This document shows, piece by piece, positions 23,942-39,743 of a stretch of 64,000 nt of DNA. The notes under the pieces were generated by a model, which made no database searches, was not told the DNA's origin, and worked only from the letters and a program-made list of their open reading frames with translations. The number at the start of each line of letters is the position of its first letter. The stretch's first letter is position 1. The stretch lies in assembly GCF_008014695.1 (NCBI RefSeq), contig NZ_VOXE01000004.1:1-64000 (forward strand), given 5' to 3'. Source of the stretch: Chryseobacterium sp. Lineage in GTDB: Bacteria > Bacteroidota > Bacteroidia > Flavobacteriales > Weeksellaceae. The translations under genes and the position numbers were made by a program.

Positions 23942-24069
23942 TGTGATTATTATTTACAGCATGAACGGCTTCAGTGGAAGTATCACGTATTTAATGAAAT
24001 TATAGCGTGAAACCATTGCTAAATCGGCTGTTAGGTTTTAAAATTGTATTTTGTTATTTTTAATGAAAG

Positions 24070-24519
24070 TCATGTCTGGTCTTTTAACCAATTTGTTAAA
24101 AGCTTTATTTGTTCATCACTGAGTTTTCCATTTTTATGCATCAATATGTATGACGGCAAAGGCATTTTTTTAGTTTCAATTTGTTTTTTTATTGAGTTTA
24201 ATAATCTTTCCTGCTTCCGATTTGCGTATGAAGTCCATTCGTTAAAGTTCAAATCATCCTTTGCGTTTTTGATGTGATTTTCCACCAATGCTCTCACAGG
24301 CTGCGCATAGTCGTACCAAGCGTAGTTGGTATTGTCGCTGTGACAATCGTAGCAAGATTTGTGAAGCATCTTTTTTACTTCGGCAGGCATTTTATAGGCT
24401 TTTGCAAAATCAGTTGCGTAAACCCGCCCTTTATTTACATTAAGGGCAGGTTGATAGAACTGCATAGCAATAAAAATAAACAGCACACTTGCCAAAATTA
24501 TCTTTAATACTTTTTTCAT
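24070..24519 (-). CDS. Haem-binding domain protein, membrane-anchored
   Basis: 149 residues from the ATG at 24519, preferred over an upstream in-frame start because it follows the previous stop by 2 bases. One N-terminal membrane anchor or signal (VLKIILASVLFIFIAMQFY) is followed by a periplasmic domain with a c-type haem motif CYDCH in HKSCYDCHSDNTNYAWYDY, and KKMPLPSYILMHKNGKLSD near the end. This is the Bacteroidota haem_bd family, often found with copper or respiratory genes. A redox role in the copper module is inferred. Confidence 0.8.
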   Translation of the reverse strand: MKKVLKIILASVLFIFIAMQFYQPALNVNKGRVYATDFAKAYKMPAEVKKMLHKSCYDCHSDNTNYAWYDYAQPVRALVENHIKNAKDDLNFNEWTSYANRKQERLLNSIKKQIETKKMPLPSYILMHKNGKLSDEQIKLLTNWLKDQT

Positions 24520-24521
24520 TT

Positions 24522-25184
24522 TTAGAACTTCTTTTTCACCGAACCACAATTAAGCATCTGGCTTCCGTAGTAAGGATTTTTGATTGACTTGGCTTCGCTA
24601 ATCCAAATAGCCCCTTTACCATCGTTGTACATTGGGCAGAAGTCCTGATACAATTTCTGAGTAGTTCCAAACAATACGATAAGGTCGGAAATATCATTAC
24701 TCAATGACACCAAGTGCTCCCTTTGGTGGCCTATCTTTCCTGCGTTATCGCCAATATGTTCTGCATTTTCTTTGGCATCTTCAGCTATGTCCATATATTT
24801 TTTATGCTTGTTGGCTGGGATGGCTTTCATATCTACTTTTTGCAATGTTGACAATAATTGCTTACCTGCATTGGCTGCTGCTTTATCATTATCTGCTACA
24901 AGTGCATTTTTTAACGCCAAATAATCTTTTACAATGGGTGTGGTAGAGAAGTTTTGAACCTGGTCTTTTACTTCATGTTTTTCAACTTTTTTCGCCGTGG
25001 TGTCCATTGTTGCTAAAGAACTTGCTGTATCGCTTTGCATTGGGCTTGCTACTGGTAGGTTTTCAGAATTTATAGTTGTATCAGTTGCTTTTGTTTCCGT
25101 ATTTTTATTTGATGACTTATTGCAGGAAATTGTGGATGCTGCAATTGTAGCCACTGTTATGATGGAGAAAATTATATTTTTCAT
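24522..25184 (-). CDS. DUF3347 lipoprotein, copper module
   Basis: 220 residues. The N-terminus ends in TISC, a lipobox, so it should be a lipoprotein. A Thr/Ser-rich linker leads to a helical DUF3347 domain (YLALKNALVADNDKAAANAG) and ends in the conserved metal-type motif CPMYNDGKGAIWISE followed by NPYYGSQMLNCGSV. In many Bacteroidota this domain is the tail of CusB adaptors, where Met, Cys and His residues are thought to bind Cu(I). Here it is a stand-alone protein and shares the final motif with the product ending at 25756. Probably a periplasmic copper chaperone. Confidence 0.8.
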   Translation of the reverse strand: MKNIIFSIITVATIAASTISCNKSSNKNTETKATDTTINSENLPVASPMQSDTASSLATMDTTAKKVEKHEVKDQVQNFSTTPIVKDYLALKNALVADNDKAAANAGKQLLSTLQKVDMKAIPANKHKKYMDIAEDAKENAEHIGDNAGKIGHQREHLVSLSNDISDLIVLFGTTQKLYQDFCPMYNDGKGAIWISEAKSIKNPYYGSQMLNCGSVKKKF

Positions 25185-25227
25185 TTTAATGATTTTAAAT
25201 AATAATAATAATGAGTATTTTTTTTGT

Positions 25228-25749
25228 TTACTTATTTTCCAATTCTTTCAGCTTTCGCTTCATAAACTCTATTTCTTCTGATTGTGTTTTGAGTATGTTT
25301 TTTTGCAGTTGTATCAGTTCGGGGTCGGTAAGTTTTGCTTTTTCCGACATCAAGACTGCGGCAGCGTGATGGGGTATCATACCTTTCACAAATTGTTTGT
25401 CGCCAACATTTATTTGCTCCCGAATACCAAACCACGAAAAGATACCTGTTGCAGCAGAAATTATTATAATACCCCAATTGATTTTCTGGTTTTCGTACAT
25501 ACTCTTCATTATCCATATTTCAATAATCAACATTGCAGAAACCATCAGCAAGGTCATATACAAATTATTAACGTTGGGGATAAGATTACTCAAACCGTCA
25601 ATCATAGCATACATTATAAAATACATAGCTGCAAACATTACCACCGCCATAATTGCAAAGCGTTTGTACATTGCTAAAGAATGTTTACCGATATGTCCTT
25701 CATTTTTAGGGCTATGTTGCATGTCGTGCTTGTTTTCCATGTTTTCCAT
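25228..25749 (-). CDS. DUF305 membrane protein, copper module 1
   Basis: 173 residues; ATG 25740 is an alternative start. A His-containing cytoplasmic start, three membrane helices, then the DUF305 motif FVKGMIPHHAAAVLMSEKAK and a helical tail. DUF305 proteins have a ferritin-like helical fold with a conserved HH pair and are frequent in copper-resistance clusters; a metal-binding role is assumed but not shown. A paralog with the same layout is in copper module 2 (61092-61574), which supports the link to copper. Confidence 0.82.
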   Translation of the reverse strand: MENMENKHDMQHSPKNEGHIGKHSLAMYKRFAIMAVVMFAAMYFIMYAMIDGLSNLIPNVNNLYMTLLMVSAMLIIEIWIMKSMYENQKINWGIIIISAATGIFSWFGIREQINVGDKQFVKGMIPHHAAAVLMSEKAKLTDPELIQLQKNILKTQSEEIEFMKRKLKELENK

Positions 25750-25755
25750 AGGGAA

Positions 25756-26652
25756 TTATTTGTTGTTAATTGTTTCCTGTACGCTGCCGCAAGTAAGCAT
25801 TTGAGAACCGTAATAAGGGTTTTTAATCGCTTCTTCTTTGCTTAACCAATTGGCACCTTTGCCATTGTTGTACATCGGACAATGCTGATAATAGACAGGT
25901 GTTTCCTGTTTTGACACATTGGTTAATTCGTACATATTTTTTGAAAGCAAGGCAAAGGCTTCTCTTTGTTTTGAAACCTCTTTAGCTGTAGCAATTTTTT
26001 CTGCATTTGCTGTTAAATCCTTCATTACTTTCATCCAAACGGTATGTTCTTCGGTAGAGAGTTTTGTTATTTCTACGGCTTTTATTGCCTTTACCAATTC
26101 AGCGGCTTTTGCAGATGAGGAAGTTGCATCGGTTTTTACCAGAGCATCTTTTACTGAAAAATAGTTATTAAAAACAATTTTCAATTGTGGTGCATTTTGG
26201 GTCGTTGCCGTAATTGTAGTTTCCATTTCTTTAGGATTGTGATTGGCATGTTCGGCTTTTATATCCATACCATTATCTTTGGCTTTTGCAACTGGTTTTT
26301 GTTCCCTGTTATACTGGCAACAGTCTGATAATTTTGCATAAATATCATCTGGCGCTAAAAATTTCTCGCTGTCATAGCCTGCAAGAGCAATGCGTTTCAA
26401 TATTTCGTCCTGATTTGTTTTTTTACGATCATAGTTGAGTGTAGCCATCTTGGTATCTTGATTCCAATTTACTGTGGCTACATTTTTTAAATTCCCAGCT
26501 TTTTCGATCGTTGTTTTACACCTATCACAGTTGCCATATATTTTTACGGTTTCTGATTTTGCATTTTTAATTTGGGCATAAGTGCTTATGGCTGATAATA
26601 ATACGGTGATTACCATCAATATTTTTGACATTGATTTGTTCATAACATTCAT
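25756..26652 (-). CDS. HMA-DUF3347 periplasmic copper-binding protein
   Basis: 298 residues. Signal peptide to about TYAQ, then an HMA-type fold with the metal loop GNCDRCKTTIEKA (CxxC) and a middle part with CC, then a DUF3347 domain ending in HCPMYNNGKGANWLSKEEA and NPYYGSQMLTCGSV. The domain pair suggests a secreted copper carrier that could hand Cu(I) to the neighbouring oxidase. It is the second gene of the minus-strand copper module, 6 bases before DUF305. Two later ATGs (26643, 26631) are possible starts. Confidence 0.83.
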   Translation of the reverse strand: MNVMNKSMSKILMVITVLLSAISTYAQIKNAKSETVKIYGNCDRCKTTIEKAGNLKNVATVNWNQDTKMATLNYDRKKTNQDEILKRIALAGYDSEKFLAPDDIYAKLSDCCQYNREQKPVAKAKDNGMDIKAEHANHNPKEMETTITATTQNAPQLKIVFNNYFSVKDALVKTDATSSSAKAAELVKAIKAVEITKLSTEEHTVWMKVMKDLTANAEKIATAKEVSKQREAFALLSKNMYELTNVSKQETPVYYQHCPMYNNGKGANWLSKEEAIKNPYYGSQMLTCGSVQETINNK

Positions 26653-27218: not shown

Positions 27219-27281
27219 GGATTTTTTTTGTAATTAATCTTTTTTTTTGACGATAATTGGATCGGAGCAATCGACTATCTG

Positions 27282-27480
27282 GGGTGGGTTTCGAAACTCC
27301 CAAAATATTTACGGACTGTAATAATGATTTTTTTTAATTTCATTGTCAATTGCTATTAGAATTGGTAGAATTTATTTACAAGTGAACTTACCAAGTGATG
27401 TAGTCGCAGGATTTGCTTTTGGTTATCCTTGGCTCTTTCTGGTAGTATTTGTGGTTAGAAAGTGGTTTCCTTTAAAATAA
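27282..27480 (+). pseudogene. PAP2 phosphatase C-terminal remnant
   Basis: Two plus-strand pieces, GWVSKLPKYLRTVIM and IGRIYLQVNLPSDVVAGFAF followed by GYPWLFLVVFVVRKWFPLK, match the C-terminus of the intact PAP2 protein at 30945-31616 (VWVSDIPKYLKF, ISRIYLRVHFPSDVIASFAL). One frameshift or stop separates them, and the catalytic His of motif 3 is Asn. No front part remains. It points to an old duplication or rearrangement of that gene. Confidence 0.75.
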
Positions 27481-27502
27481 AAATCAGTGAAAGAAATTTA
27501 GA

Positions 27503-27539
27503 AAATTCAGATTGTCCACAGATTGGCTCCGCAGATTTG
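27503..27539 (+). promoter_or_regulatory. Shared 20-bp regulatory element plus -7 box upstream of the PepSY-like gene
   Basis: AAATTCAGATTGTCCACAGA (27503-27522) is identical to the minus-strand sequence at 36995-37014 in front of the TolC-MFP-RND operon. In both places 9 bases separate it from a near-consensus -7 box: CAGATTTG at 27532-27539 here, CAATTTTG there. The TTG inside the element may serve as -33. Most likely a response-regulator site. Confidence 0.7.
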
Positions 27540-27587
27540 TATTAGAGATTGAAACAAATTCAATCCAAAACACTAAAATATTTCAAA

Positions 27588-28028
27588 ATGAAAAAACCAG
27601 CAGTAGCATTATCAATCGTTTTCGCACTGGTTGCCGGAACAATTACAGCACAGTCAATGACCACAGGCGGTGAAACTCCGGTTGCCGTTAAAAATGCCTT
27701 TAAGAAAGAATATCCGCAGGTGAAAAAAGTGAAGTTTGACGATGAGAACGGAACGTACGAAGCAGAATTCAAATTAAACGGCAAAGACATGTCGGTGACT
27801 TATACCGCAAATGGGACAAAACAGGAAACTGAAACTTCTATGAAAGTTAGTGAACTTCCTAAAAATGTCGTTTCCTACATCGCAAGCAAAAAATATGGCA
27901 AAATAAAAGAAGCCGCAAGAATTGTAAAAGCAGACGGTTCGGTAGTGTATGAAGCGGAGGTGAGCAAAGGCGACCTTTTATTTAGTGAAAATGGAAGTTT
28001 TCAGAAATTAAATGTGGAAGCAGATTAA
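27588..28028 (+). CDS. PepSY-like secreted protein
   Basis: 146 residues from ATG 27588; an earlier in-frame start would add a non-signal stretch. Signal peptide to about TITAQ. Two PepSY-like repeats can be seen: VKNAFKKEYPQVKKVKFDDE then YEAEFKLNGKDMSVTYTANG, and VSYIASKKYGKIKEAARIVK then YEAEVSKGDLLFSENG. Such proteins are small periplasmic factors, some acting as peptidase inhibitors or stress-response targets. The promoter has the same 20-bp element as the RND efflux operon, so it is probably a target of the two-component system at 37.0-39.0 kb. Confidence 0.82.
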   Translation: MKKPAVALSIVFALVAGTITAQSMTTGGETPVAVKNAFKKEYPQVKKVKFDDENGTYEAEFKLNGKDMSVTYTANGTKQETETSMKVSELPKNVVSYIASKKYGKIKEAARIVKADGSVVYEAEVSKGDLLFSENGSFQKLNVEAD

Positions 28029-28088
28029 TATTTTTTCTCAGGGCAATTCAGAAATGGATTGCCTTTTATTTTCTTAAAAATTAGTCTG

Positions 28089-28829
28089 ATGAAAAAACTT
28101 ACACCTCCAATTAAATTTAGTTTTCTGTTTTTAATTTTAATGTTTCAGACTTCTTTTGCACAACATGATTCTTTAAAAGACAGTGTGCGAATTTCCGAAG
28201 TTAAACTGAATGTAAAACAATTTATCATTCCGGCGGCATTGATAACTTATGGATTTATTTCTTTAGGAAATCCAAAACTAAATAATTCGACTGCGGCTGA
28301 AATTCAGGAAGACCATCCCAATTTCCAGTACAAAATCGACAACTACTCCCAGCTTGCGCCGGGCGTTGCAGTTTTTGCCCTAAATGCTTTTGGCATAAAA
28401 GGAAAGCACAACTGGAAAGATGCTGCATTAATTTATGGTACTTCAGTTGCGATTACAACGGCTTTTGTTTTGCCACTAAAAAAAATTACCAACGAAACAC
28501 GGCCGGATTTTTCGGCAAATAATTCCTTTCCGTCCGGACATACCGCGATTGCTTTTGCGTCGGCAGAATTTCTTCGACAGGAATACAAGAATAATCCGTG
28601 GATTGGTTACGCAGGCTATGCGGTTGCCACAGCGACCGGAATTTTGCGGATGTATAATAACAAGCATTATTTGGGCGACGTAATTGCAGGCGCAGGTTTC
28701 GGTATCGCTTCTGCAAAACTTTCCTACGTTTTATACGATAAAGTTTTGCTGAAAAAAGGCTGGCATTTTACCTTAACGCCAGTTTACATAAATAAAACCG
28801 CGGGTTTCGCGTACAATTATAATTTCTAA
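28089..28829 (+). CDS. PAP2-family phosphatase with signal peptide
   Basis: 246 residues from ATG 28089. A signal peptide or first helix (FSFLFLILMFQTSFAQ), then motifs KKITNETRPDF, SFPSGHTAIAF and ILRMYNNKHYLGDV, the complete PAP2 triad. The C-terminal end (LTPVYINKTAGFAYNYNF) looks beta-stranded, as in envelope-located members. It probably dephosphorylates a lipid A or isoprenoid phosphate in the periplasm. It follows the PepSY-like gene by 60 bases and leads into DUF2147 and a sterol-desaturase-like gene, so the whole set may be one envelope-remodelling operon. Confidence 0.87.
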   Translation: MKKLTPPIKFSFLFLILMFQTSFAQHDSLKDSVRISEVKLNVKQFIIPAALITYGFISLGNPKLNNSTAAEIQEDHPNFQYKIDNYSQLAPGVAVFALNAFGIKGKHNWKDAALIYGTSVAITTAFVLPLKKITNETRPDFSANNSFPSGHTAIAFASAEFLRQEYKNNPWIGYAGYAVATATGILRMYNNKHYLGDVIAGAGFGIASAKLSYVLYDKVLLKKGWHFTLTPVYINKTAGFAYNYNF

Positions 28830-28837
28830 AAATCTCA

Positions 28838-29278
28838 ATGCATAAAACAGTTTCAGTTCTGCTTTTGTTTCTTGCTATCCAAATTTCAGCACAAACTTCA
28901 AAAAACGATGTTTTGGGACGCTGGATTTCTTCGGATAAAAGTGTGGCAGTAAATGTTTATAAAGAGGGAAATAATTTTAAGGCAAAAGTGATTTGGTTTG
29001 ATGAACGTTTGGGAAGCGGGACACCGATGAATACCAGAAAAGACACGCACAATCCTGAAGAGGATTTACGAAATAGAAAAATTATCGGCATGGATGTTTT
29101 GGAAAATCTTAATTACAACTCAGAAAACCAACGCTGGGAAAACGGAAAAATTTACGATGCTTCAAGTGGGAGAACCTGGGACACTTTTGCAGAGATTCAA
29201 AAAAACGGGAAATTATATGTCCGTGGTTTCTGGAAATTTAGTTGGATTGGTAAAACGCTTTATTTTAGTAGATTTTAA
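28838..29278 (+). CDS. DUF2147 secreted protein
   Basis: 146 residues. Signal peptide to about ISAQ, then the DUF2147 beta-barrel pattern: VLGRWISSDKSVAVNVYKEG, KVIWFDERLGSGTPMNTRKD, NRKIIGMDVLENLNY, WENGKIYDASSGRTW and LYVRGFWKFSWIGKTLYFSR. The family is periplasmic and uncharacterised in function. It starts 8 bases after the PAP2 stop, so it is in the same transcript. Confidence 0.88.
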   Translation: MHKTVSVLLLFLAIQISAQTSKNDVLGRWISSDKSVAVNVYKEGNNFKAKVIWFDERLGSGTPMNTRKDTHNPEEDLRNRKIIGMDVLENLNYNSENQRWENGKIYDASSGRTWDTFAEIQKNGKLYVRGFWKFSWIGKTLYFSRF

Positions 29279-29361
29279 TTAAATACTTATGGTTTAAAAT
29301 TTTATTTTTTAAGGCTTAACACTTTGGCGTTTAATTATAAAAACTGTAAAAATTTACCACT

Positions 29362-30357
29362 ATGACTGCTTTTGTTGAAAATCACACCTTCGGAATTCAA
29401 ATCGCGTTATTTCTATTTATCCTTTGTTTTTTCTGGATTTTAGAGAGTATTTCCCTGTCGCAATCCTTGAAAGACAAATACCTCCACACATTGGTAAATG
29501 CCAAATTTTTAATATTTGTAATTCCCATCCAGATTATTCTCGCGGTTATTTTATTGTCTGTTTCTGCAAAAACCGTCACCTATTCTTTCGGACTTTTATA
29601 CCATCTTCCGATAGAGAAAAATGGTGTAACTTATTATCTGATTGCTTTTTTACTAATCGATTTTTTCAATTTTATTTATCATTATCTAATGCACAAAATT
29701 CCTCTCGGATGGAGGTTCCATCAAGTACATCACAGCGATATGGATGTAGATATCAGTACGACTTTTAGAGAACATCCTGGTGAAACTTTTTTCCGCGTAA
29801 CTTTCTTTATTATCACCGTTTTTGTACTAGGAATTTCACCGTGGATCATTATATTATTCCAATTAATGGAAAGCACGTCCAATCTAATTTCGCATTCGAA
29901 AATAAAATTGCCGGAAAATATTGACCGATTTGTTTCTTTAATTTTTGTAACGCCAAATTCCCACAGCATTCATCACCACTACAAACTTCCGCATACAGAT
30001 GCCAATTATGGCGACATACTTTCCATTTGGGATCATATTTTCAAAACGGCTTCAAGATTAAACCAGAAAAAAATTGTTTATGGAATTGATACGCATATGA
30101 ATCCTGTTTACAATGCCAATTTTAAACTTCTAATTAAAAGACCATTTCGCTCCAAAAAGAAATCTCCACTTGTGAATGGTGCTGTCAAAAATACATTAAT
30201 TCTAATTTTCATTTTCAGCATTCAAGGTTTTTATGCACAGAAAACTTTAGGAAATACCATAAAAGATTCGACTGTTATTGAAACAGACCTCAATGTGAAC
30301 GATTTCTCTGTTATAATCATCAATCACATTAAAGCTGCGGAACTTTCTTCCGTTTGA
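29362..30357 (+). CDS. Sterol desaturase / fatty acid hydroxylase family membrane protein
   Basis: 331 residues with several membrane helices. The di-iron histidine clusters of the family are visible: HYLMH, HQVHHSD and HSIHHHY. These enzymes hydroxylate or desaturate lipids. After the catalytic part there is an extra membrane helix ([14 protein letters not shown]) that resembles a signal peptide and a short polar tail, which is not usual. It is 83 bases after DUF2147 on the same strand. The substrate is unknown; a membrane lipid change is the likely outcome. Confidence 0.85.
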
Positions 30358-30460
30358 GAGCACAACGCTCATAAAGTCTATGCTTCAGGTATGGGTGAGG
30401 GTTCCTTTTCCAAGGGCGAAAATTACTGACAGGACACTAAAATATCAGACATGTTTTTCA

Positions 30461-30835
30461 TCAAATAAATTTTGAAATAGTAAAACAGAGAATTACACAC
30501 CATATCAATACGATGATAAAACCTGCTTTCAGATTTTTATCATTATTCCAGTTGTATGTTATCGCTTTAATTCTGCTTTCCGTGATAATGTTTTTGGGTA
30601 TTAATTGTATGGTCCAATAAATTCCCAGGGGCAATAAAATCAGATCATCAAGCAAACCGATTATAGGTATAAAATCCGGGATTAAATCTATCGGACTCAA
30701 AGCGTAACCGATTATTAAAACAATCAGTGCTTTGGGGATCCAAGGGGTTTCCGGATGTTGATAGGCCAAATGCAGAACAACGAGTTCGGTCTTGAGTTTT
30801 TTGGCTTTTTCTTTTATTTTTTTTAAAAGCTGCAT
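30461..30835 (-). CDS. DUF1232 (YkvA-like) membrane protein
   Basis: 124 residues. Hallmark segment WIPKALIVLIIGYALSPIDL then IPDFIPIIGLLDDLILLPLG, the DUF1232 core with two helices, and a C-terminal membrane helix. The family is widespread and of unknown function. It is convergent with the sterol-desaturase-like gene and 110 bases downstream of the PAP2 gene on the minus strand. Confidence 0.88.
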   Translation of the reverse strand: MQLLKKIKEKAKKLKTELVVLHLAYQHPETPWIPKALIVLIIGYALSPIDLIPDFIPIIGLLDDLILLPLGIYWTIQLIPKNIITESRIKAITYNWNNDKNLKAGFIIVLIWCVILCFTISKFI

Positions 30836-30944
30836 CTGTTTTTAAATTTAAGCAAGCTGGATCGTGAGATCTTTCATTTTAATGTAGAATCAAATTACAT
30901 GGTTCCTTGTACTATCTTCGTGCCTTTTTAGTTATTTCACTTCT

Positions 30945-31616
30945 TTAATTATTTATTGGAAACCACTTTTTGAAAAGAAATATTATTAGAAAAAGCCAAC
31001 TGTAGCCTAATGCAAAGCTGGCAATTACATCACTTGGAAAGTGAACTCTCAAATAAATTCTGCTAATACCAATGACGAATGAGAGTAAAAGTAAAAATAA
31101 TATCATTGCAAATTTTAAATACTTTGGAATGTCTGAAACCCACACCAAATAAGCGATCGCCCCATAAAATATAAAACTGAATGTAGTGTGCCCGCTGGGG
31201 AAACTAAAACCTGTTTCAGCATATAATAGTGGATATGGCGGTCTTGTCCTTTCAAACATTTTTTTAAATGCTGATAATAGCAACAAACCTCCACCTCCTG
31301 ACATGAAAAGAAATACGGACTCTCTTTTTTTCTTAAATATAAAAAGTGCACCCACGACAATGGGAAATACGTAAATCATTAATTCTGGCGCAGAAAGATT
31401 TGTGATGGACAGCATCAATTGATTTAATCTCTGATGAACGATGAAATTTTTGAAAAATAAAAAAATTATTTCATCAAATGTACCTTCTTTTTCTAAAACA
31501 ATTTCATCTGTAATGGCAAAAAACAACACTAATGAAATTATAAAAAAAGCAATCGAGATCAGTAAATATTTGGAAGAATCTTTGAGATAATTTTTCAGGA
31601 CCTGCGTATATTTCAT
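30945..31616 (-). CDS. PAP2-family membrane phosphatase
   Basis: 223 residues with five or six helices. Motif 1 is KKMFERTRPPYP, motif 2 SFPSGHTTFSF, motif 3 SRIYLRVHFPSDV, all intact. The N-terminal extension YLLISIAFFIISLVLFFAIT and the size match the YodM/PgpB-like group that acts on undecaprenyl pyrophosphate or phosphatidylglycerol phosphate. A decayed copy of its C-terminus lies at 27282-27480. It ends the minus-strand set below the RND operon. Confidence 0.9.
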   Translation of the reverse strand: MKYTQVLKNYLKDSSKYLLISIAFFIISLVLFFAITDEIVLEKEGTFDEIIFLFFKNFIVHQRLNQLMLSITNLSAPELMIYVFPIVVGALFIFKKKRESVFLFMSGGGGLLLLSAFKKMFERTRPPYPLLYAETGFSFPSGHTTFSFIFYGAIAYLVWVSDIPKYLKFAMILFLLLLSFVIGISRIYLRVHFPSDVIASFALGYSWLFLIIFLFKKWFPINN

Positions 31617-31701
31617 TTTAATTTTCGTAATTTTTTTAAATAAAAAATAGAATGTTCCGAAGTAAAAACGCTAAAATTTAAAGCAGTTCTTGTTAACTCC
31701 A

Positions 31702-34700
31702 TCAGTTCGTTCTTTTGTATGTTTCTTTAAAATTTATATTATTCAGTAACGATGGTAAAACAATTAACAGTAAAGGCAAAGCAACTAGAAATCCACCAAT
31801 CACCGCAATCGCTAAAGGCTGATGCATTTGCGCCCCTGTTCCAATCCCCAAAGCCAAGGGCATCAAAGCGATAATTGCTCCTAAAGCCGTCATTAGTTTC
31901 GGGCGTAATCTCGTACTGACCGCAAAAATTAGTGCTTTCTCTTTTGATTTTTCCTCCAGACTTTCCTCAAACTGAAGATATGTGAAAATGGCATTTTCCC
32001 CGATAATTCCAACCATCATGATTAAACCGGTGTAACTTCCAACATTTAAAGGCGTACCTGTGATAAAGAGCAAAATGAAACTACCGGAAATTCCTAAGAT
32101 GGAAACCAACAAAATTAAAAAAGCAACTTTTAGATTTCTAAATAGAAATAAAATGGTCGTAAAGACGAGTAAACTTGAGACACATAAGATCAAAAGTAAT
32201 TCACTGAAAGATTTCTGCTGTTCCGCATATGCGCCGCCATAGATAATGGTGTAACCTGTTGGAAGTTTAATTTTTTTACCAATTTCTGATTGTATATTTT
32301 TAATAGTTCCGCCCAAATCTCCATTATCCAAACGCGCACTCACAATGCCAATATTCTGCAGATCTTCGCGTTCCACTTCTGCCGAACCTTTTAAAATCGA
32401 CACTTTCGCAAATTCTTTCAAAGGTTTCAGCTGGCCATTCGGCAAAGAAATCATACTGTTTTGAATTTCCTGAACGGAAGCATTTGATTTATTATTGTAT
32501 AAAATCCTGATGGGTGTGAATTGGTTTTGATCAAATAAATCTCCGACTGTATTTCCGCTTAAAATAGTTTGCGTTTGGTATTGAAAATTCTGTGGCGAAA
32601 TTTGATATTGTGCTAAAACCGAAAAATTGGGTGAAATTTCTATCGATGGACCTGCAATCAAAATCCCATCAAAAACATCGGCTGTTCCCGGAACTTTTTC
32701 TACAATTTTAGAAATTTGCCGGGAATAATCCTGAATTTTATTAATATCAGTTCCAAAAACCTTGATCTCAATGGGTTGCGCGCTGCTCATTAAATCGCCG
32801 AGCATATCGGTAATAACCTGTCCAAAATCTACGGTTAAAGGTAAACCGGTTTTTTCAATTTTTGAGCGAAGATCGTCCGTAACTTCTGCCGTTGTTTGGG
32901 TTCTGTCTTTTTTTAAATTAATTAAATAATCACCACGGTTGGGTTCGGTAATGAAAAATCCCATCTGCGTTCCCGTTCTTCGGCTGTAGGCTTGCACTTG
33001 AGGATTGGCTTTAATAATTTTTTCGACTTCACGAAGTTCGCGATCGGTTTCCTCCAAAGACGTTCCCGGTGGGGAATTGTAATCGAGAATGATGCTCCCT
33101 TCATCCATATCAGGCAAAAATCCGGTGGAAATATTCGGTATAATTAAAGCAGTCAGCAAAACCAAAAGGCCCATAAAAACGTAAGAAAATATCGGTTTTC
33201 TTATAAAAAATCCTACCCATTTCCTTTCTTTCACATCTTGGTGTTCGGTCTTTCTTACTTTCTTTTTATCTTTTGATAACAACAAATAAATGACAGGTAA
33301 TAAAAGCCAAGTGACAAAAAATGAACTGACTAAAGTGATAATCATCGTATCGGTCATCACTTTGAAATAGGAACCTGCAACGCCGCTCATCAGCATAAAT
33401 GGAAGAAAAATAACAATCGTACTAAAAGAGGAACCGACCATTGCTTTTAGCAAATAATTAACTGCTCGCTGTACCAAAGTTTTACTGTTTGCCTCAGGAA
33501 ATTCTTCGTGCGTCCGGTGGATTTGTTCGACAATTACAATTGCATCATCAATGATCAAACCAATTGCCGCAGCAATTGCGCCCAAAGTCATAATATTAAA
33601 AGTTGCGCCAGTTGCATACAAAACGACCATCGTTAAACAAATCGTAACCGGAATTGTAATTAAAATAGTCGCACTCGCTTTCCAGGATTTTAAAAATAAA
33701 ATGGCGACCACAATTGCTAATAAAAGTCCAATCCACAGTGCATCTGTAACACTTTTAATAGAACTATTCACAAAATCTGCCTGAACGTAATAGGGTTTTA
33801 TCAAGATATCTTTTGGCAATGTTTTTTGTAAATCTGCAATTTTCGCTTCCATCGCTGCGGAAACATCAACCACATTTGCGTTGGGTTGCTGCACGACGGC
33901 AATTAGAATACTCTCTGTACCGTTTGCATTTACTTTGATATATTGTTTAGCGTTATGAACCTCAATTTTGGCAATATCTTTAAAATAAACAATCCTGTTG
34001 CCATCGTTTTTTAGGACTGTATTACTCAAAGCATCCAGATTTCTTATCTGTGAATTGGTAAGTGTTAAATAAAGAAAATTGTAATCAGAAGAATAGCCGT
34101 TTGATTTTATGAAATTGGTTTCATTCAGCGCGGTCTCAATATCTTTAGGGCTTAAACCCAATCTCGTCATCTTCACTTGGTCTAAAATTGCCCAAAATTC
34201 TTTGTCTTCGCCACCAATTATTCTAATATCACTTACGCCGAGAACCTGCGACAGAAAAGGTTTTATGGTATAAAGAGCAAGTTGTTTCAGCGCAATTGGC
34301 GACAGTGAAGTGGACGTTAACGTATAACCCATCACAGGCAAAATCGAAGGATTCATCTTTTCTACCGTGATGTTGATGTTTGCAGGAAGTTGGTTTTTTA
34401 TTTCATTTATTTTTGCTTCAATCTGCTGTTGGCTTAAATCAATATTTGCATTCCAATCCATAAAGGCGGAAATCTCACAGCTTCCCCGGCTTGTTGTGCT
34501 TTTCAATAACTGCAGATTGGGCACTAATTTCACGGCATTTTCTAAAGGCCGGGTAACGGCTACTGTCATTTGGTCGACAGGTTGTTCTCCTGCTTCAGCA
34601 ATGATTTTTATTTTTGGGAAAGTGATTTCGGGGAAAAGTGAAGATTTAATTTTGGTATAGGAAAAAATACCGCCTAGAAGAATAAGCAGTACCATGACCA

Positions 34701-34737
34701 AAAGTGGATTTTTATATTTTACAAAAAATGATTCCAT
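31702..34737 (-). CDS. RND-superfamily efflux permease
   Basis: About 1011 residues from ATG 34737; a GTG nine codons upstream is possible. Typical RND architecture: one membrane helix, a large periplasmic loop, six helices, then the same again. Helix 4 has AIGLIIDDAIVIVEQIHR with the paired Asp of the proton relay, the HAE/AcrB-like form and not the heavy-metal DFGLIVDGAV form. The end is helix-rich (LRPKLMTALGAIIALMPLAL). It pumps a drug, lipid or similar compound using the proton gradient together with the MFP and TolC genes just upstream. Confidence 0.92.
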   Translation of the reverse strand: MESFFVKYKNPLLVMVLLILLGGIFSYTKIKSSLFPEITFPKIKIIAEAGEQPVDQMTVAVTRPLENAVKLVPNLQLLKSTTSRGSCEISAFMDWNANIDLSQQQIEAKINEIKNQLPANINITVEKMNPSILPVMGYTLTSTSLSPIALKQLALYTIKPFLSQVLGVSDIRIIGGEDKEFWAILDQVKMTRLGLSPKDIETALNETNFIKSNGYSSDYNFLYLTLTNSQIRNLDALSNTVLKNDGNRIVYFKDIAKIEVHNAKQYIKVNANGTESILIAVVQQPNANVVDVSAAMEAKIADLQKTLPKDILIKPYYVQADFVNSSIKSVTDALWIGLLLAIVVAILFLKSWKASATILITIPVTICLTMVVLYATGATFNIMTLGAIAAAIGLIIDDAIVIVEQIHRTHEEFPEANSKTLVQRAVNYLLKAMVGSSFSTIVIFLPFMLMSGVAGSYFKVMTDTMIITLVSSFFVTWLLLPVIYLLLSKDKKKVRKTEHQDVKERKWVGFFIRKPIFSYVFMGLLVLLTALIIPNISTGFLPDMDEGSIILDYNSPPGTSLEETDRELREVEKIIKANPQVQAYSRRTGTQMGFFITEPNRGDYLINLKKDRTQTTAEVTDDLRSKIEKTGLPLTVDFGQVITDMLGDLMSSAQPIEIKVFGTDINKIQDYSRQISKIVEKVPGTADVFDGILIAGPSIEISPNFSVLAQYQISPQNFQYQTQTILSGNTVGDLFDQNQFTPIRILYNNKSNASVQEIQNSMISLPNGQLKPLKEFAKVSILKGSAEVEREDLQNIGIVSARLDNGDLGGTIKNIQSEIGKKIKLPTGYTIIYGGAYAEQQKSFSELLLILCVSSLLVFTTILFLFRNLKVAFLILLVSILGISGSFILLFITGTPLNVGSYTGLIMMVGIIGENAIFTYLQFEESLEEKSKEKALIFAVSTRLRPKLMTALGAIIALMPLALGIGTGAQMHQPLAIAVIGGFLVALPLLLIVLPSLLNNINFKETYKRTN

Positions 34738-34766
34738 TATTATATTTTTGTCTGAGATGTTCACAA

Positions 34767-35693
34767 TTAGTCGACGATATGAACTTTTGAATTATTTACC
34801 AAGCCGTAATTTCCGGAAGTAATTATCCGATCTTTCAAATTAATATTTCCTGAAATGATCTGCACGTACTTTTCATTTTCCGTACCTTTTACGATCTCCA
34901 CTTTTACTGCGGTACTATTGTCTTTTAATTTCATGATCCAAAATTTAGTTTGCATTTCATCAGTTAAAACTGCACTTTTTTGGACAAACAATCCTGTAGA
35001 GTTGTCTTGTTGTTTCAGGTGGATGTTCACAATTAAATTTTCAGGAACAGAAACATTTTCATTCGGTTTTACCAAGACTTTTTCGGTCTGAGAAATCGGG
35101 TCAACTGCTGGTAAAAGCTTTGCAATATGCCCATGAATGGTTTTGCCGTCTGGAAGAGTAATTTCTAAATTTTTATTGTTAATGAGCATTTCGTGGTATT
35201 CATACGGCACATTCATTACAAGTCCAAAACTTGAGGCATCTGTAATTCCTGCTAAAATTTCACCTTCCTGCACATAATCACCAATCTGATGATTTAAAGA
35301 ATTAACGAATCCGGTTGCAGGACAGGAGACCGAGGTAACTCCTGAAAAACGAAAGGAAGGATCCAGGTTATTAATTGTGCTACCCAATGCGCGCGATTCC
35401 TTGGTTTGCACCGAAAATAAAAATTGTCCTCTTCGGACGTTGTCACCCAATTTAATTCTAACATTGGTGATGTAACCAGTAGCATTCGATTTCACATCAG
35501 ATTTCAATAAGTATGTTGCCGTCGCATTAATGGAAATATCATTATTAATAGACAATGTGTCCGTGGGAAAAGCCACAGAAACAGGGGTTGCGGATGTTAA
35601 TGTCGGGTTATCCGTCATGATTTCCGGCTTTTTCTTACACGAAACCATTAAAATCGAAAACAGAGAAAAGGTAATTATTTTAAGGCATTTCAT
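34767..35693 (-). CDS. RND periplasmic adaptor (membrane fusion protein), lipoprotein
   Basis: 308 residues. Lipobox MVSC at the end of the signal region. The lipoyl-like halves are present (LLKSDVKSNATGYITNVRIK and the HQIGDYVQEGEILAGITD hairpin); the coiled-coil hairpin is very short, so this is one of the small MFP forms. The C-terminal barrel contains VQKSAVLTDEMQTKFWIMKL. It bridges the permease and the TolC-like channel. It shares a base with the TolC stop, so all three genes are translationally linked. Confidence 0.9.
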   Translation of the reverse strand: MKCLKIITFSLFSILMVSCKKKPEIMTDNPTLTSATPVSVAFPTDTLSINNDISINATATYLLKSDVKSNATGYITNVRIKLGDNVRRGQFLFSVQTKESRALGSTINNLDPSFRFSGVTSVSCPATGFVNSLNHQIGDYVQEGEILAGITDASSFGLVMNVPYEYHEMLINNKNLEITLPDGKTIHGHIAKLLPAVDPISQTEKVLVKPNENVSVPENLIVNIHLKQQDNSTGLFVQKSAVLTDEMQTKFWIMKLKDNSTAVKVEIVKGTENEKYVQIISGNINLKDRIITSGNYGLVNNSKVHIVD

Positions 35694-36952
35694 TATTGTA
35701 TAATTATATTTTCATATTGATTTTCAAGTCTTAATACCTGCATTTTGTACTGTAAAAGGCCACTCTTCAAAGCCGTATAATTGGTAATCGCCAGAATGAA
35801 ATCGACCATTTTGATGTCGCCAGTAGGCAATTGTTTCAGATTAGCTTCAATTAAAGTTTTCGCATATTTCATTTGCGTTGTGGCCAGTCTGACCATCTCT
35901 TTATATCGCAAAATTTGATCTTTAATTTGAGATTTTCGCTGCTCATATTGTTTTTGATAAAATACATTGTAATTTTTCCGGGTATCGAGTTCTATTTTTT
36001 TCTGTTCCAAAGACAATTCCCGTTTATGACCGTCGTAGATTGGAACCGTTAAAGAAAGTCCTGCGCTAATTCCGAAATTTTTGTACGGAGTTTGGATCAA
36101 CGCTGAAGAATAACCGCCATCAGCGAAAACCGAAATCTTTGGCTGGTAATCATAGTTGATCAACTGAATATCATTGACCAGTTTCAGACTGTCTGTGCGA
36201 AAGGTTTGTGCGTACACACTTTCTTTAAAATCGGATTCAATATTATAATTAAAATCTGGCGATTCTAAGTCGGTAACTACTTTTTCATTATTTCCGGAAA
36301 GGTATTGAAGCACTCCAAAATTATTTTGAAAATCTGCAAGATGTTGTTTTTGGAGCAATTCATTTTGCTGTTGCGTTACTTTAAAAGTCAAGTAATCGGT
36401 CTGCCGAAAAACGGATTTCTGAGTTAGGGTTTTTAAAACTAAATCTTCCTGCTGAAAAATATGGATGATTTCCTGATCAATTTTCGTTTGCTCCTGGTTT
36501 TCATACGCCAGAAGATATTGTTCGGTAATCGCCTTTTTCAGTGTAAGTGCAGAGAGATTTTTCTGATTTAATAATTGTTGAACCGTAAGTGAAAAAGAAT
36601 AGAGTTTTGCCTGATAGTTTTTTTTGCTGACGAAATCCCGGGAAACCCGGCCTAAAAGTGCGAGATTATTTCCGTTGACAGTGGAATTTCCGTCATAGCC
36701 CCAATTTTTTATTTGTGGAGAATAGGAAGCATCCGCGATGCCATTCACCTTGAAACCATAATCACGACGCATTTTCACACTGTCTATTGCTGTAATGCTG
36801 ATCTTATTTTGTAAATCCTGTAAATCCGGATTGGTTTGCTGGGCGGTTTCCAAATAATATGTAAGCGTATTACTGTTCTGTGCATTGAAGCGTGAACTGA
36901 CCATTAACAAAAGCGGCAATAGCAAGATTTTTAGTTTTTTCTGGAAAGCCAT
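35693..36952 (-). CDS. TolC-family outer membrane efflux protein
   Basis: 419 residues with signal peptide to about RFNAQ. Two repeats of the outer membrane efflux protein domain with long helices, e.g. NLALLGRVSRDFVSKKNYQA, LKKAITEQYLLAYENQEQTK, and a late NFGISAGLSLTVPIYDGHKR followed by KKIELDTRKNYNVFYQK. It forms the outer membrane duct. It is the first gene of the operon TolC-MFP-RND and carries the promoter with the 20-bp element shared with the PepSY-like gene. Confidence 0.92.
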   Translation of the reverse strand: MAFQKKLKILLLPLLLMVSSRFNAQNSNTLTYYLETAQQTNPDLQDLQNKISITAIDSVKMRRDYGFKVNGIADASYSPQIKNWGYDGNSTVNGNNLALLGRVSRDFVSKKNYQAKLYSFSLTVQQLLNQKNLSALTLKKAITEQYLLAYENQEQTKIDQEIIHIFQQEDLVLKTLTQKSVFRQTDYLTFKVTQQQNELLQKQHLADFQNNFGVLQYLSGNNEKVVTDLESPDFNYNIESDFKESVYAQTFRTDSLKLVNDIQLINYDYQPKISVFADGGYSSALIQTPYKNFGISAGLSLTVPIYDGHKRELSLEQKKIELDTRKNYNVFYQKQYEQRKSQIKDQILRYKEMVRLATTQMKYAKTLIEANLKQLPTGDIKMVDFILAITNYTALKSGLLQYKMQVLRLENQYENIIIQ

Positions 36953-36961
36953 ACGTTATTG

Positions 36962-36978
36962 GAATCAAAATTTGATTC
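36962..36978. promoter_or_regulatory. 17-bp palindrome in the TolC leader
   Basis: GAATCAAA and TTTGATTC flank a central A, making a perfect palindrome 10 bases before the TolC ATG. It overlaps the expected transcription start and could be a second operator. Confidence 0.4.
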
Positions 36979-37014
36979 AAAATTGCTCAGAAATTCTGTG
37001 GACAATCTGAATTT
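36978..37014 (-). promoter_or_regulatory. Shared 20-bp regulatory element plus -7 box of the RND operon
   Basis: The minus strand at 36995-37014 equals the 27503-27522 element base for base, and a near-consensus -7 box CAATTTTG (36978-36985) follows after 9 bases, the same spacing as upstream of the PepSY-like gene. The plus strand shows 11-bp-spaced half-sites ATTCTG and AATCTG, in line with an OmpR-family dimer site. Confidence 0.7.
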
Positions 37015-37041
37015 ATCAGGTTTAGGATAGGATTGTATGGA

Positions 37042-38295
37042 TTATTTCCGCTTTAAAATAAACTGATGTCTGTTTTCTGCGAAACTGTAATTTAAAATTA
37101 AGTGAAATGAATTTGCAATCTCCTTAGCGATTTCCAAACCTAAACCAGTTCCTTTTTCCTGCGTACTTTGGCGTTGAAATCTTTTAAATAATTTATCAGG
37201 ATCCAATGCAATCCCTTCAGCTTTGTTGGATATTTTCATTTCATCTTTGCTAAATATGATTTCCACTTCACTATTTTCCGGCGCGTATTTTAAGGCATTA
37301 AAAAGTAAATTTCCGACCAGCACTTCCACTAAACTAAAATCGATTTCCACAACCAGGACTTTCGAAAAATCTTTTTTTAGGGTCAGGTTTTTAAATTTAA
37401 TCTGTTCGCTATAGTTTTTAATAAAAGAATCTACAAGAAGATTCAGGTTAACAGGCTGAATATTTGTGAACTGTCTGTTTTCAATTTTAGATAGAAGTAA
37501 CAGTGCCTGATTCAATTTGCTCATTCTTGTATTGGCATTCGAAATATCGTTTAGGATTTCAGCCTGTTGTTCTGAAATAAAATCCGTTTGCCAAAGGAGT
37601 TCAATATTATTCTGTACAATTGCGAGGGGTGTTTGCAACTCATGCGAGGCGTTTTCGGTAAACTCTTTTTGTGATTGATAGACTTTTTTGTTTGTTGCAG
37701 ACAGTTTGCTCAAAGAATTATTCAAATCATTCAGTTCATTGATTTTACTGGGTACCAAATTTAAATCATCGGCATGATCAACACGGAATTTCTGTAACTC
37801 CTCTAAAGTATGGTAAAAGGGTTTCCATACTTTTTTTTTAACCTGTGTATTGATCAGCAAAAGAGTAACGGTCAACACGGACAAAACAGAAATAAGGAGA
37901 TACAGAATGCTTTTCATCAGGTCTTCATTTTCTACCAAAGACTGGCGGACCGTCACATTGAAAGTGCCGTTTTCGGTTTTCATTGGAAATTCCAGAATCC
38001 GGTAGGATTCCATTTCGTCATCGTCTTTATTATAAATATCCTTTGTAAAAATTCGCTCCTCTAAAAGTTGTCCGGGATTTTTTTCAATACTGATTCGGTC
38101 ATCAAGAGTTATAAAGTTTTCTGCCGGTAAATTTTGAAGCTTCCTGATAACACTAGTTTTCTGGGCTTCTAAATTTTCATCAATATTTTGAGTCAAAACC
38201 TTTTGAATGGCGATATAAAAAAGCGGAATGGAAATCAGCATAACCAAAATCGTCACTCCGATGTAGCGCAATGAAATAAAGTGCGTGAGCTTCAT
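37042..38295 (-). CDS. Sensor histidine kinase
   Basis: 417 residues. Membrane helix near residues 12-30, a periplasmic domain (about 31-125), a second helix (about 128-148), then a linker and the kinase core. The H-box is ENASHELQTPLAIVQNN (His218), with the N-box near FNALKYAPENSEVEI and a G-box GTGLGLEIAKEIANSFHL. It phosphorylates the response regulator whose gene overlaps its start by 4 bases (ATGA). The sensed signal is unknown. It lies directly upstream of the TolC-MFP-RND operon and on the same strand. Confidence 0.92.
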   Translation of the reverse strand: MKLTHFISLRYIGVTILVMLISIPLFYIAIQKVLTQNIDENLEAQKTSVIRKLQNLPAENFITLDDRISIEKNPGQLLEERIFTKDIYNKDDDEMESYRILEFPMKTENGTFNVTVRQSLVENEDLMKSILYLLISVLSVLTVTLLLINTQVKKKVWKPFYHTLEELQKFRVDHADDLNLVPSKINELNDLNNSLSKLSATNKKVYQSQKEFTENASHELQTPLAIVQNNIELLWQTDFISEQQAEILNDISNANTRMSKLNQALLLLSKIENRQFTNIQPVNLNLLVDSFIKNYSEQIKFKNLTLKKDFSKVLVVEIDFSLVEVLVGNLLFNALKYAPENSEVEIIFSKDEMKISNKAEGIALDPDKLFKRFQRQSTQEKGTGLGLEIAKEIANSFHLILNYSFAENRHQFILKRK

Positions 38296-38969
38296 GATGC
38301 TTCTAATTTATAACCCATTCCATATACTGATTTTATGCAATCCTTAGCTCCTGCCAATGCCAGTTTTTTCTTTAAATTTTTGATATGTGCATATAGAAAA
38401 TCAAAATTGTCAAAAAACTGAATATTGTCTTCTGCAATATGTTCTGCTATGGCAGTTTTAGAGATTATGCGGTTTTTATTGACTGAAAGATATAATAGAA
38501 TGTCAAATTCTTTCCTTGTTAAATCGATCGGCCTTCCGTGGTGAGAAATCAGTTTCGTTTCTGCATTAATCTCAAGATCGTTTATCAAGATCGATGAATT
38601 TCCCTTAAACTGTCTCCTTCTAATCACCGCTGAAATACGCGCACCTAATTCAGAAAGATGAAAAGGTTTAGCCAGATAATCATCAGCACCCCACTGTAAA
38701 CCATTGATTTTATCATCTAAAGAATTTTTTGCAGAAATAATGATAACACCATCCGTCTTTTTTTCATCTTTCAACTGTTTCAGAAGATGTAATCCATTGC
38801 CATTGGGTAAGGTAATGTCCAGTAAAATACAGTCGTAATCATAGCATTCCAGCTTTTCTTTTGCTTCTTCAAAATCTTCTGCTAACTCACAAACGTACTT
38901 TTCGCTTTTCATGTAAACCAAAATGCTTTTACTTAGCTGTTCTTCGTCTTCGATTAGTAAAATTTTCAT
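38292..38969 (-). CDS. OmpR-family response regulator
   Basis: 225 residues. Receiver domain with the phosphoacceptor D51 (CILLDITLPNGNGLHLL), acidic pocket E7-D8, and K at VIISAKNS. A C-terminal winged helix follows (IDLTRKEFDILLYLSVNKNR, VYGMGYKLEAS). It is cotranscribed with the kinase. Tandem 11-bp repeats AATCTGAATT(A/T) lie at 38997-39018 in its own promoter, and the same core occurs in the RND and PepSY promoters, so these are its probable targets. Confidence 0.92.
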   Translation of the reverse strand: MKILLIEDEEQLSKSILVYMKSEKYVCELAEDFEEAKEKLECYDYDCILLDITLPNGNGLHLLKQLKDEKKTDGVIIISAKNSLDDKINGLQWGADDYLAKPFHLSELGARISAVIRRRQFKGNSSILINDLEINAETKLISHHGRPIDLTRKEFDILLYLSVNKNRIISKTAIAEHIAEDNIQFFDNFDFLYAHIKNLKKKLALAGAKDCIKSVYGMGYKLEAS

Positions 38970-38996
38970 ACAAATTTTTTAACAAGTTAACTTATA

Positions 38997-39043
38997 AATC
39001 TGAATTAAATCTGAATTTAAGGTACAGACGCATTTCTGAATTT
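38997..39043 (-). promoter_or_regulatory. Tandem 11-bp repeats upstream of the response regulator
   Basis: On the plus strand AATCTGAATTA (38997-39007) is followed directly by AATCTGAATTT (39008-39018), and TTTCTGAATTT is at 39033-39043. Contiguous 11-bp repeats are the usual layout of OmpR-family sites. The core is the same as in the shared 20-bp element, implying autoregulation. Confidence 0.6.
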
Positions 39044-39230
39044 ATAATAGAAAAAAGGGAATAGAAAATACAGTTTTCGCACAGAATTGAGACCAAGTTT
39101 TTGAATAAGCAATAATATATCATTAAATATAAGATTTAAATAAATGTTAAATCTATTTTAAACACTAGTATATAAGACTATTGCTTTATAGTAATTTTAA
39201 GAAGAGGAGCGAAGTATGGGAACATATTAA

Positions 39231-39572
39231 GGCGCAAGACAACATGTTAAATTTGCAAGAAATATTCTGACGCCGGTAGAAAGGATTTCCTGTCTTTATC
39301 ATACTGCAGAATTTAAGAAATCCACGCCAGCATCATATAACACCCACTCATCCGCAAACTCAGCTAAACATCTAACGCTACCATATAACGATAAAAAAGT
39401 TGTAAAACTGCATTCTTACTACAGTCCTTACGAATTAGAAAAGGCTGTGGATGATTTTGTAAATCGCTCCAATAATGAGCGTGATCACGATCTCTGTAAA
39501 ATCTTTATAGCCGGTTATCAGAGTTGCATTTTAGTTCTGACGCAAGAACATCAAAGTCAAATAAAGAACTAA
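39231..39572 (+). pseudogene. Transposase remnant with integrase-core-like end
   Basis: The frame is open for 113 codons but has no start. Near its end HSYYSPYELEKAVDDFVNRS followed by NNERDH resembles the end of IS3/IS150-type integrase cores (YYSPEELE.A...F..YYN..RYH). After that the match is lost, so the piece is frameshifted or recombined. Nothing else is clear between 38970 and 39230. Confidence 0.4.
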
Positions 39573-39743
39573 TGTGCCAATTATTCTTCTTGCTGATTTT
39601 TGAAAGTATATTGCGACTGGCATAAACCCTTAATAAAATATTCACTGGAATAATGACTTTTGAACTCCTGTTTTATCTGACTCAATCGAACCAAGTCTTC
39701 TATAAAAGTGTTTGAAGATAATCCAGTCTGGGTCACTAAAGCC

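Follow-up and report, generated by a model that had tools for sequence, protein, structure and literature searches.

We analyzed a 64,000-nt stretch of DNA (the window; contig NZ_VOXE01000004.1) from a 2.77-Mb Kaistella genome (Weeksellaceae, Flavobacteriales; GCF_008014695.1, deposited as Chryseobacterium sp.) and found that three promoters in it carry the same operator. They precede a response regulator (RR)–histidine kinase (HK) operon, an efflux operon encoding an outer membrane protein (OEP), a periplasmic adaptor (MFP) and an RND permease, and an operon that begins with a PepSY_like gene. The operator is a direct repeat, TTCAG-N6-WWCAG, placed about 9 nt in front of a promoter box, yAnnTTTG. 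In all likelihood the operators belong to the adjacent two-component system, whose RR would switch on its own operon, the pump and PepSY by class-II activation. This would be an OmpR/PhoB class-II regulon of known type with a Bacteroidota promoter and a PepSY arm, and similar predicted sites recur in many related bacteria.

One operator at three promoters of the window

The sequence-only reading of the window had described a 20-mer, AAATTCAGATTGTCCACAGA, identical at 27503-27522 (+) and 36995-37014 (-), with 9 bases between each copy and a box, and an 11-bp tandem before the RR gene. We reproduced these observations: the 20-mer is exact at both places (mean in shuffles 0.00), the boxes at 9 bases are CAGATTTG on the PepSY side and CAATTTTG on the OEP side, and the core AATCTGAATT of the tandem lies at 38997-39006 and 39008-39017. 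What the earlier reading had missed is that the 20-mer is itself an 11-bp direct repeat, TTCAG-N6-CACAG, as in the RR element. Viewed alongside orthologous promoters, both the 20-mer and AATTCAGATTTAATTCAGATTT in front of the RR gene are instances of one consensus operator, TTCAG-N6-WWCAG with an 11-bp pitch. Because the 20-mer shares the repeat of the RR element, and the RR promoter has a box at an equal distance, we treated the sites as one element at three promoters:

38999..39015, minus strand: operator 1, TTCAGATTTAATTCAGA, in front of the RR gene, a putative site of autoregulation
38982..38989, minus strand: putative -7 box TAACTTGT, four of the six letters of yAnnTTTG, 9 nt past operator 1
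36995..37011, minus strand: operator 2, TTCAGATTGTCCACAGA, before the efflux operon
36978..36985, minus strand: -7 box CAATTTTG, 9 nt past operator 2
27506..27522, plus strand: operator 3, TTCAGATTGTCCACAGA, before the PepSY operon
27532..27539, plus strand: -7 box CAGATTTG, 9 nt past operator 3

On the minus strand the genes behind them are RR and HK and, past an 89-bp gap, OEP, MFP and RND; the plus-strand genes start at 27588 with PepSY_like, followed by PAP2, DUF2147 and a member of the fatty-acid-hydroxylase family:

38292..38969, minus strand: OmpR-family RR, PmrA-like, with Response_reg and Trans_reg_C domains
37042..38295, minus strand: PorY-family sensor HK, gene overlapping the RR gene by 4 bp
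35693..36952, minus strand: OEP-family outer membrane efflux protein
34767..35693, minus strand: periplasmic adaptor (MFP), HlyD_D23
31702..34764, minus strand: RND permease, ACR_tran
30945..31616, minus strand: PAP2 protein, encoded behind the RND gene in the same direction and perhaps transcribed by read-through
27588..28028, plus strand: PepSY_like protein (PF11396, DUF2874, BLIP-like fold), presumed periplasmic from its N-terminus
28089..28829, plus strand: PAP2 protein, variable passenger
28838..29278, plus strand: DUF2147 protein, variable passenger
29362..30357, plus strand: fatty-acid-hydroxylase-family membrane protein, among eight Kaistella loci only in the window

Searching the whole genome, we found exactly two exact copies of the 20-mer, those in the efflux and PepSY_like operon promoters, and four places with up to three mismatches (the two exact ones, one with two and one with three mismatches; reversed control 0). 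By eye, the two-mismatch copy at C4:69103-69122 is a decayed duplicate of the PepSY promoter, and the three-mismatch copy lies inside a 634-aa open frame that looks RecQ-like. Of the exact 11-bp tandem the genome has a single copy. When one mismatch was allowed, the bare core AATCTGAATT was found 16 times against 15.3 expected; because it occurs at chance frequency, only the dimeric form is informative, and the bare 10-mer was rejected as evidence.

The identity of the two window copies could also come from copying, the 20-mer being a duplicated promoter fragment or a dispersed repeat without a regulatory role. There is segmental duplication in the area, and the decayed PepSY promoter at C4:69103 is a third copy. 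However, the flanks of the two window copies agree in only 15/60 upstream and 28/60 downstream bases, and in other species the operator is kept separately at both promoters with different spacer letters, so that with only two exact copies in the genome such an origin is hardly credible. A dispersed repeat unrelated to promoters, which the sequence-only reading had named as one outcome that would speak against it, is excluded for the 20-mer by the genome-wide search, and for the operator it was rejected on the placement of sites in this genome and across the genus. Eight exact TTCAGWWTNNNNWCAGW sites were found in the genome, three of which are the RR, OEP and PepSY promoters; the remaining five lie inside or between coding frames, and by eye none faces a gene start.

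Allowing up to one mismatch, ATTCAGWWTNNNNWCAGWWT was found at 14 places in the genome (3 exact, 11 with one mismatch; control 0). The one-mismatch sites that were placed are the decayed PepSY promoter, one inside the RR gene and one at 39068-39087 (+). The last, an operator-like site upstream of the RR gene but on the other strand, is probably due to chance; it lies to the left of a stretch that reads, by eye, like a transposase remnant. A larger regulon in this genome was not found in a search for the promoter module with up to two mismatches, which gave 99 places versus 39 for the reversed control. Its two exact places coincide with the 20-mers, the decayed copy accounts for one of the six places with one mismatch, and the RR promoter has two mismatches; the rest were judged by eye from their letters, not from gene context, and weaker regulon members may exist elsewhere in the genome.

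The operator and box in Kaistella promoters

To describe the motif, we took the best-scoring site within 300 bp upstream of the RR, OEP and PepSY genes of eight Kaistella genomes, with a score that assumes 9 nt to the box. An OEP homologue was not found in the G013 and G015 stretches, which leaves 22 rather than 24 promoters. The operator was present in 22/22 of them; since the choice of sites assumed the 9-nt spacing, this count describes the motif and is not a test of it. The first half-site is TTCAG in 20 promoters and ATCAG in two, CAG stands at the same offset in all 22, and the runner-up site of each region scored clearly lower. At 9 nt, the box yAnnTTTG matched in six of six letters in 11 promoters, in five in eight and in four in three, and the three weakest boxes, TAACTTGT, TAATTTAC and TAATTTGC, all belong to RR promoters. 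For the OEP genes of G023 and G006 we took as the likely start a point 63 nt upstream of the tblastn match, and for that of G030 the beginning of the match itself; open frames place these OEP sites just upstream of the genes. The RR-promoter box TAACTTGT of the window fits the variant TAnnTTGY, while the pump and PepSY boxes fit yAnnTTTG. This shortened box (SM5) is known from Flavobacterium psychrophilum, where the authors suspected an alternative sigma factor, as given in passages of PMC9723704.

We made three tests independent of motif discovery, namely a genus-wide count of exact sites, a full position weight matrix (PWM) and an operator-only PWM. Across 36 Kaistella genomes, 22 exact ATTCAGWWTNNNNWCAGWWT sites were found in the eight genomes whose RR has at least 65% identity, 20 of which are RR, OEP or PepSY promoters and two lie inside open frames. 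The other 28 genomes, five of them with an RR at 50-60% identity, contained 10 such sites; eight of these fall within open frames, and the other two immediately precede one but lack a box. PepSY was found in 9/36 genomes, all nine of which have the RR (eight at ≥65% identity, one at 60%). Among the Kaistella RR homologues with 50-60% identity (L222-L226), some have repeats with other half-sites, such as TTCCAA/TTCAAA, and, by eye, with boxes at a similar distance, which suggests parallel regulons with diverged operator letters.

The operator outside Kaistella

For the two PWM tests, we used 79 non-Kaistella loci from a kinase search (the best 80 of a longer list, with L104, a Kaistella locus, left out), all from Bacteroidota, judged by their titles, except L119 (Williamsia). 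Upstream regions with a start and at least 120 bp were usable for 75 RR, 28 PepSY, 8 OEP, 13 PAP2, 66 HK, 9 MFP and 8 RND genes. The profile was built from 19 of the 22 Kaistella sites, all of one genus, after dropping three near-duplicate sites of G026. Compared with dinucleotide shuffles, the full PWM reached p ≤ 0.01 in 21/28 PepSY, 33/75 RR, 4/8 OEP and 4/13 PAP2 regions, and in none of the controls (HK 0/66, MFP 0/9, RND 0/8). The operator-only PWM, which is blind to spacing, exceeded its threshold in 42/111 target regions (RR 26/75, PepSY 12/28, OEP 4/8) and in 0/83 HK, MFP and RND upstream regions. After these 42 operator matches, a box with at least five of six letters was found at +9 in 18 and at +10 in 7, and in 0-2 at each other offset from 0 to 29.

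Searching 395 Bacteroidota genomes for the exact full module, we found nine places in eight genomes besides the two in the window, and two for the reversed pattern; this strict pattern misses lineages with other half-sites. The modules of L284 and L283 lie 18 and 24 nt before PepSY_like genes, and L284 is beside OEP and PAP2 homologues. Of the others, that of L289 is inside a coding frame, those of L285-L288 and L291 stand before other open frames, and at the L290 module no open frame was found.

The PepSY arm and its passenger genes

The sequence-only reading had expected control of efflux plus an envelope-lipid set. The efflux and PepSY parts are supported, and the lipid part is weak, as PAP2, DUF2147 and the hydroxylase are not conserved. 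Homologues of PAP2 and DUF2147 follow PepSY in 2/8 Kaistella loci, those of the window and G013; the hydroxylase does so in the window only. In the 79 non-Kaistella kinase loci, which differ in length, we found an RR homologue in 78, PepSY_like in 30, PAP2 in 16, an RND with at least 60% identity in 9, and DUF2147 or the hydroxylase in none. Since PepSY has these passengers in only part of the genomes, conservation does not extend to an envelope-lipid regulon; the conserved predicted target is PepSY.

In the window, the PepSY_like gene lies about 9 kb from the kinase gene, and it follows the HK gene by 168 and 145 bp in G013 and G015 and stands within 400 bp of it in loci such as L109, L110, L113 and L120. 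Its family is PF11396 and not PepSY: the protein exceeds the Pfam gathering score of PF11396 (29.6 bits, cut-off 28.3), and its structure model (mean pLDDT 85.0) matches the DUF2874/BLIP-like structures 4hbr, 4ipb, 4k61 and 4fr9 with E values from 1e-7 to 3e-6. The product at 29362-30357, formerly taken for a desaturase, matches the fatty acid hydroxylase family PF04116 instead. We claim neither a lipid A function for PAP2 (LpxE 22 bits, cut-off 177) nor an ornithine-lipid function for the hydroxylase (OlsE 56.5, cut-off 475).

The protein predicted to bind the operator

A single regulator, the OmpR-type RR at 38292-38969, had been proposed by the sequence-only reading, and it is the best explanation of our data: the operator stands before the RR, pump and PepSY genes in all 22 Kaistella promoters, exact sites and the RR gene go together in the genus, and the operator recurs in front of RR, PepSY and OEP genes elsewhere in Bacteroidota. 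The RR exceeds the cut-offs of both domains of the OmpR/PhoB family (PF00072, 89.9 bits; PF00486, 58.8 bits). PmrA is its best named model (equivalog NF007928), at 170.6 bits, below the cut-off of 330, and its best PDB sequences are BasR and DrrD. We infer from these features that the RR very probably binds the operator.

Since this tie between RR and operator comes from sequence inference, another transcription factor, encoded elsewhere, could bind the element and control the two-component genes, the pump and PepSY. However, within the genus the operator tracks the RR gene, elsewhere it is found next to RR homologues, the RR's own promoter carries a site, and OmpR/PhoB regulators such as BqsR typically use an 11-bp direct repeat over the -33/-35 region. 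The genome encodes four Trans_reg_C proteins, and the recognition helices of the other three, DTAVIDVFINGLRKKL, TIDVHIRRLREKL and ARSMDVYIAKLRKLL, differ from that of the RR, FDNFDFLYAHIKNLKKKL. Control by such a second factor is very unlikely.

We also compared base 4 of the half-site with recognition-helix residue 195 in the 42/78 RRs with a strong site. With H195, base 4 was not C in 27 and C in 4, and with Q195 it was C in all 11 (H 27/4, Q 0/11; Fisher 3e-7), the sites having been found by a score with a preference for C at base 3 and for A or C at base 4. RRs with H195 mostly had TTCAGA or TTCAAA half-sites, and those with Q195 had TTCC(C/T/A)A.

Proposed mode of action

The phosphorylated OmpR/PmrA-type RR would bind TTCAG-N6-WWCAG as a head-to-tail dimer with an 11-bp pitch. 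Bound there, it would recruit RNA polymerase to the -7 box about 9 nt downstream and activate three transcripts: the RR-HK operon (positive autoregulation), OEP-MFP-RND, and the PepSY_like operon with the genes behind it. The PepSY_like protein most likely feeds back negatively on the periplasmic domain of the kinase, by analogy with DbfQ and DbfS. Envelope, metal or haem stress are guesses for the signal.

Activation is probable from the fixed spacing. According to passages of PMC9723704, F. psychrophilum has its sigma-A box, TAnnTTTG, at positions -12 to -5; with the -7 box in this position, the operator would cover about -38 to -22 and replace the missing -33 element. No TTG is conserved near -33, as position 9 of the operator is G in 4/19 profile sites, and the first box position is C instead of T in 9/19. 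In 19 of the 22 Kaistella promoters the 11-bp repeat stands at its fixed distance from a box with five or six letters, as in the class-II direct-repeat layout. The nearly fixed box distance together with the missing -33 element leads us to read the sites as those of class-II activation and positive autoregulation.

The RR could instead bind as a repressor, or act in both ways, as a site overlapping -33 covers a region that RNA polymerase needs and might block it; HaeR of Porphyromonas gingivalis is reported in PMC3764172 as both activator and repressor. But blocking does not need the near-fixed spacing of 9, sometimes 10, nt, and the C in 9/19 boxes and the lack of a conserved G for a -33 TTG are as expected of activator-dependent promoters. 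Passages of PMC4682146 describe BqsR, whose sites share this repeat layout, as an activator. Repression or mixed control is thus unlikely.

Several observations weigh against class-II activation by the RR at all these promoters. With the full PWM the HK control climbs to 8/66 at p ≤ 0.05, and 42/75 distant RR and 4/8 OEP promoters have no match to the Kaistella profile at p ≤ 0.01; some of the unmatched distant promoters have other half-sites, and in some none was found. The nine exact modules in 395 genomes also include unrelated genes, and the passengers PAP2, DUF2147 and hydroxylase are variable. In 1/22 promoters, that of PepSY in G030, the box reads better at 10 nt. The change from H to Q at residue 195 occurred once on the RR tree, which gives one independent pair; because of this single change the co-variation with the half-site has no statistical weight of its own, and we rejected recognition-helix co-evolution as independent proof. 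The 11 further one-mismatch operator places in the genome of the window face a control of 0. Finally, the 20/20 identity of the two window copies exceeds what the motif predicts, two motif draws agreeing at all 20 positions with a chance of 5.5e-4 per pair (20 within-genome pairs listed); beyond selection or luck it is unexplained.

Comparison with known systems

By gene context, the nearest experimentally studied relative is HaeRS of P. gingivalis (PG0719-PG0720/PGN_0752-0753), which like the window has a Bacteroidota RR-HK pair with a DUF2874 gene, PG0717, close by. According to passages of PMC3764172, HaeR binds its own promoter, and the RR protein, lost with a broken kinase, was restored with the kinase. 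The likeness is one of context; the regulon reported there comprises haem uptake, gingipains and transporters, and an operator consensus for HaeR is absent from these passages.

The PmrA/BasR and PhoB boxes have a direct repeat in place of the -35 element. The RR resembles these regulators by its best named model and best PDB sequences, although its PmrA score is far below the cut-off. BqsR/CarR of Pseudomonas aeruginosa is an RR activator of TTAAG-N6-TTAAG sites, one pentamer of which overlaps -35 (passages of PMC4682146), and PepSY proteins are encoded beside its kinase (passages of PMC12714742). The window has the same spacing but TTCAG/WWCAG instead of TTAAG, the Bacteroidota -7 box, a PorY-family kinase and a PF11396 protein in place of a Pfam PepSY one.

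DbfQRS of Vibrio cholerae likewise joins a small periplasmic PepSY protein, a kinase and an RR. Passages of PMC12714742 describe that DbfQ binds DbfS and shifts it to phosphatase, that outer-membrane stress or damage activates DbfQRS, and that systems of this type occur in Proteobacteria, Terrabacteria and Fusobacteria, the groups named there. A module like DbfQRS would have its PepSY-domain gene at most four genes away from HK/RR; the window has its PepSY_like gene about 9 kb from the kinase gene and a protein of a different Pfam family.

The window HK belongs to the NCBI PorY family (NF052314, 420.5 bits, cut-off 350), which links it to PorXY of P. gingivalis. This family was matched at E ≤ 1e-60 by 35/35 kinases scanned (the window, five Kaistella and 29 of the 79 others), with score and cut-off compared for the window kinase only. 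A structure model of the window kinase had a pTM of 0.50. According to passages of PMC4800418, PorY of P. gingivalis is paired with PorX, a protein with a PglZ domain, and their two genes stand apart as "orphans", whereas in the window the kinase gene overlaps an OmpR-type RR gene whose product has no PglZ domain.

A defined operator is available, to our knowledge, for few classical two-component systems in Bacteroidota, and among the papers listed by our searches of open-licence PMC literature we saw no description of this operator or regulon. Here the site, its spacing, the target genes and the helix expected to read it could be predicted from the sequence. On this basis one could predict the efflux and envelope genes that respond jointly in Bacteroidota, environmental as well as clinical, and test periplasmic PepSY feedback outside Proteobacteria. 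A wider history is conceivable, though we would lean slightly against it: PorY-family kinases may ancestrally have belonged to a Bacteroidota-wide, positively autoregulated envelope-stress system with an OmpR/PmrA-type RR, a BLIP-fold periplasmic feedback protein, an RND pump/PAP2 output and one operator-promoter code (11-bp direct repeat, 9 nt, yAnnTTTG), the half-site letters drifting with the RR recognition helix. The orphan PorY-PorX type IX secretion pathway of P. gingivalis would then be a derived rewiring.

Efflux genes, duplications and neighbouring genes

The RND permease scored below the cut-off for all 19 NCBIfam models listed, multidrug ones included; for the CusA/CzcA heavy-metal model TIGR00914 it reached 451.7 bits (cut-off 701.45). 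A cluster of heavy-metal P-type ATPase, haem-binding domain, DUF305 and DUF3347 proteins lies at 21815-26652 of the window, and DUF3347-related copies also occur about 40 kb off (L005 896-3337), so that a metal-handling neighbourhood adjoins the regulon.

At 30438-31835 lies a 1.4-kb stretch with DUF1232, PAP2 and the last part of the RND gene, of which a second copy with 93% identity occurs about 38 kb away (L005 5185-6577; C4:69185-70577). The decayed PepSY promoter at C4:69103-69122 lies beside this second copy, with two mismatches and the box CATATTTG, and by eye its gene is broken after the start. Near the second copy we also found short segments of the RND gene (32685-32807) and of 39518-39738. 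Directly upstream of the PepSY promoter in the window, at 27264-27495, we found a truncated remnant of the PAP2 C-terminal coding region with 71% DNA identity to 30932-31163, the end of the PAP2 gene. This remnant points to a rearrangement, which may explain the distance between PepSY and the kinase gene. At 42520-43819, a HipA-type protein is encoded in two overlapping frames, one with the HipA N-terminal and one with the HipA C-terminal domain.

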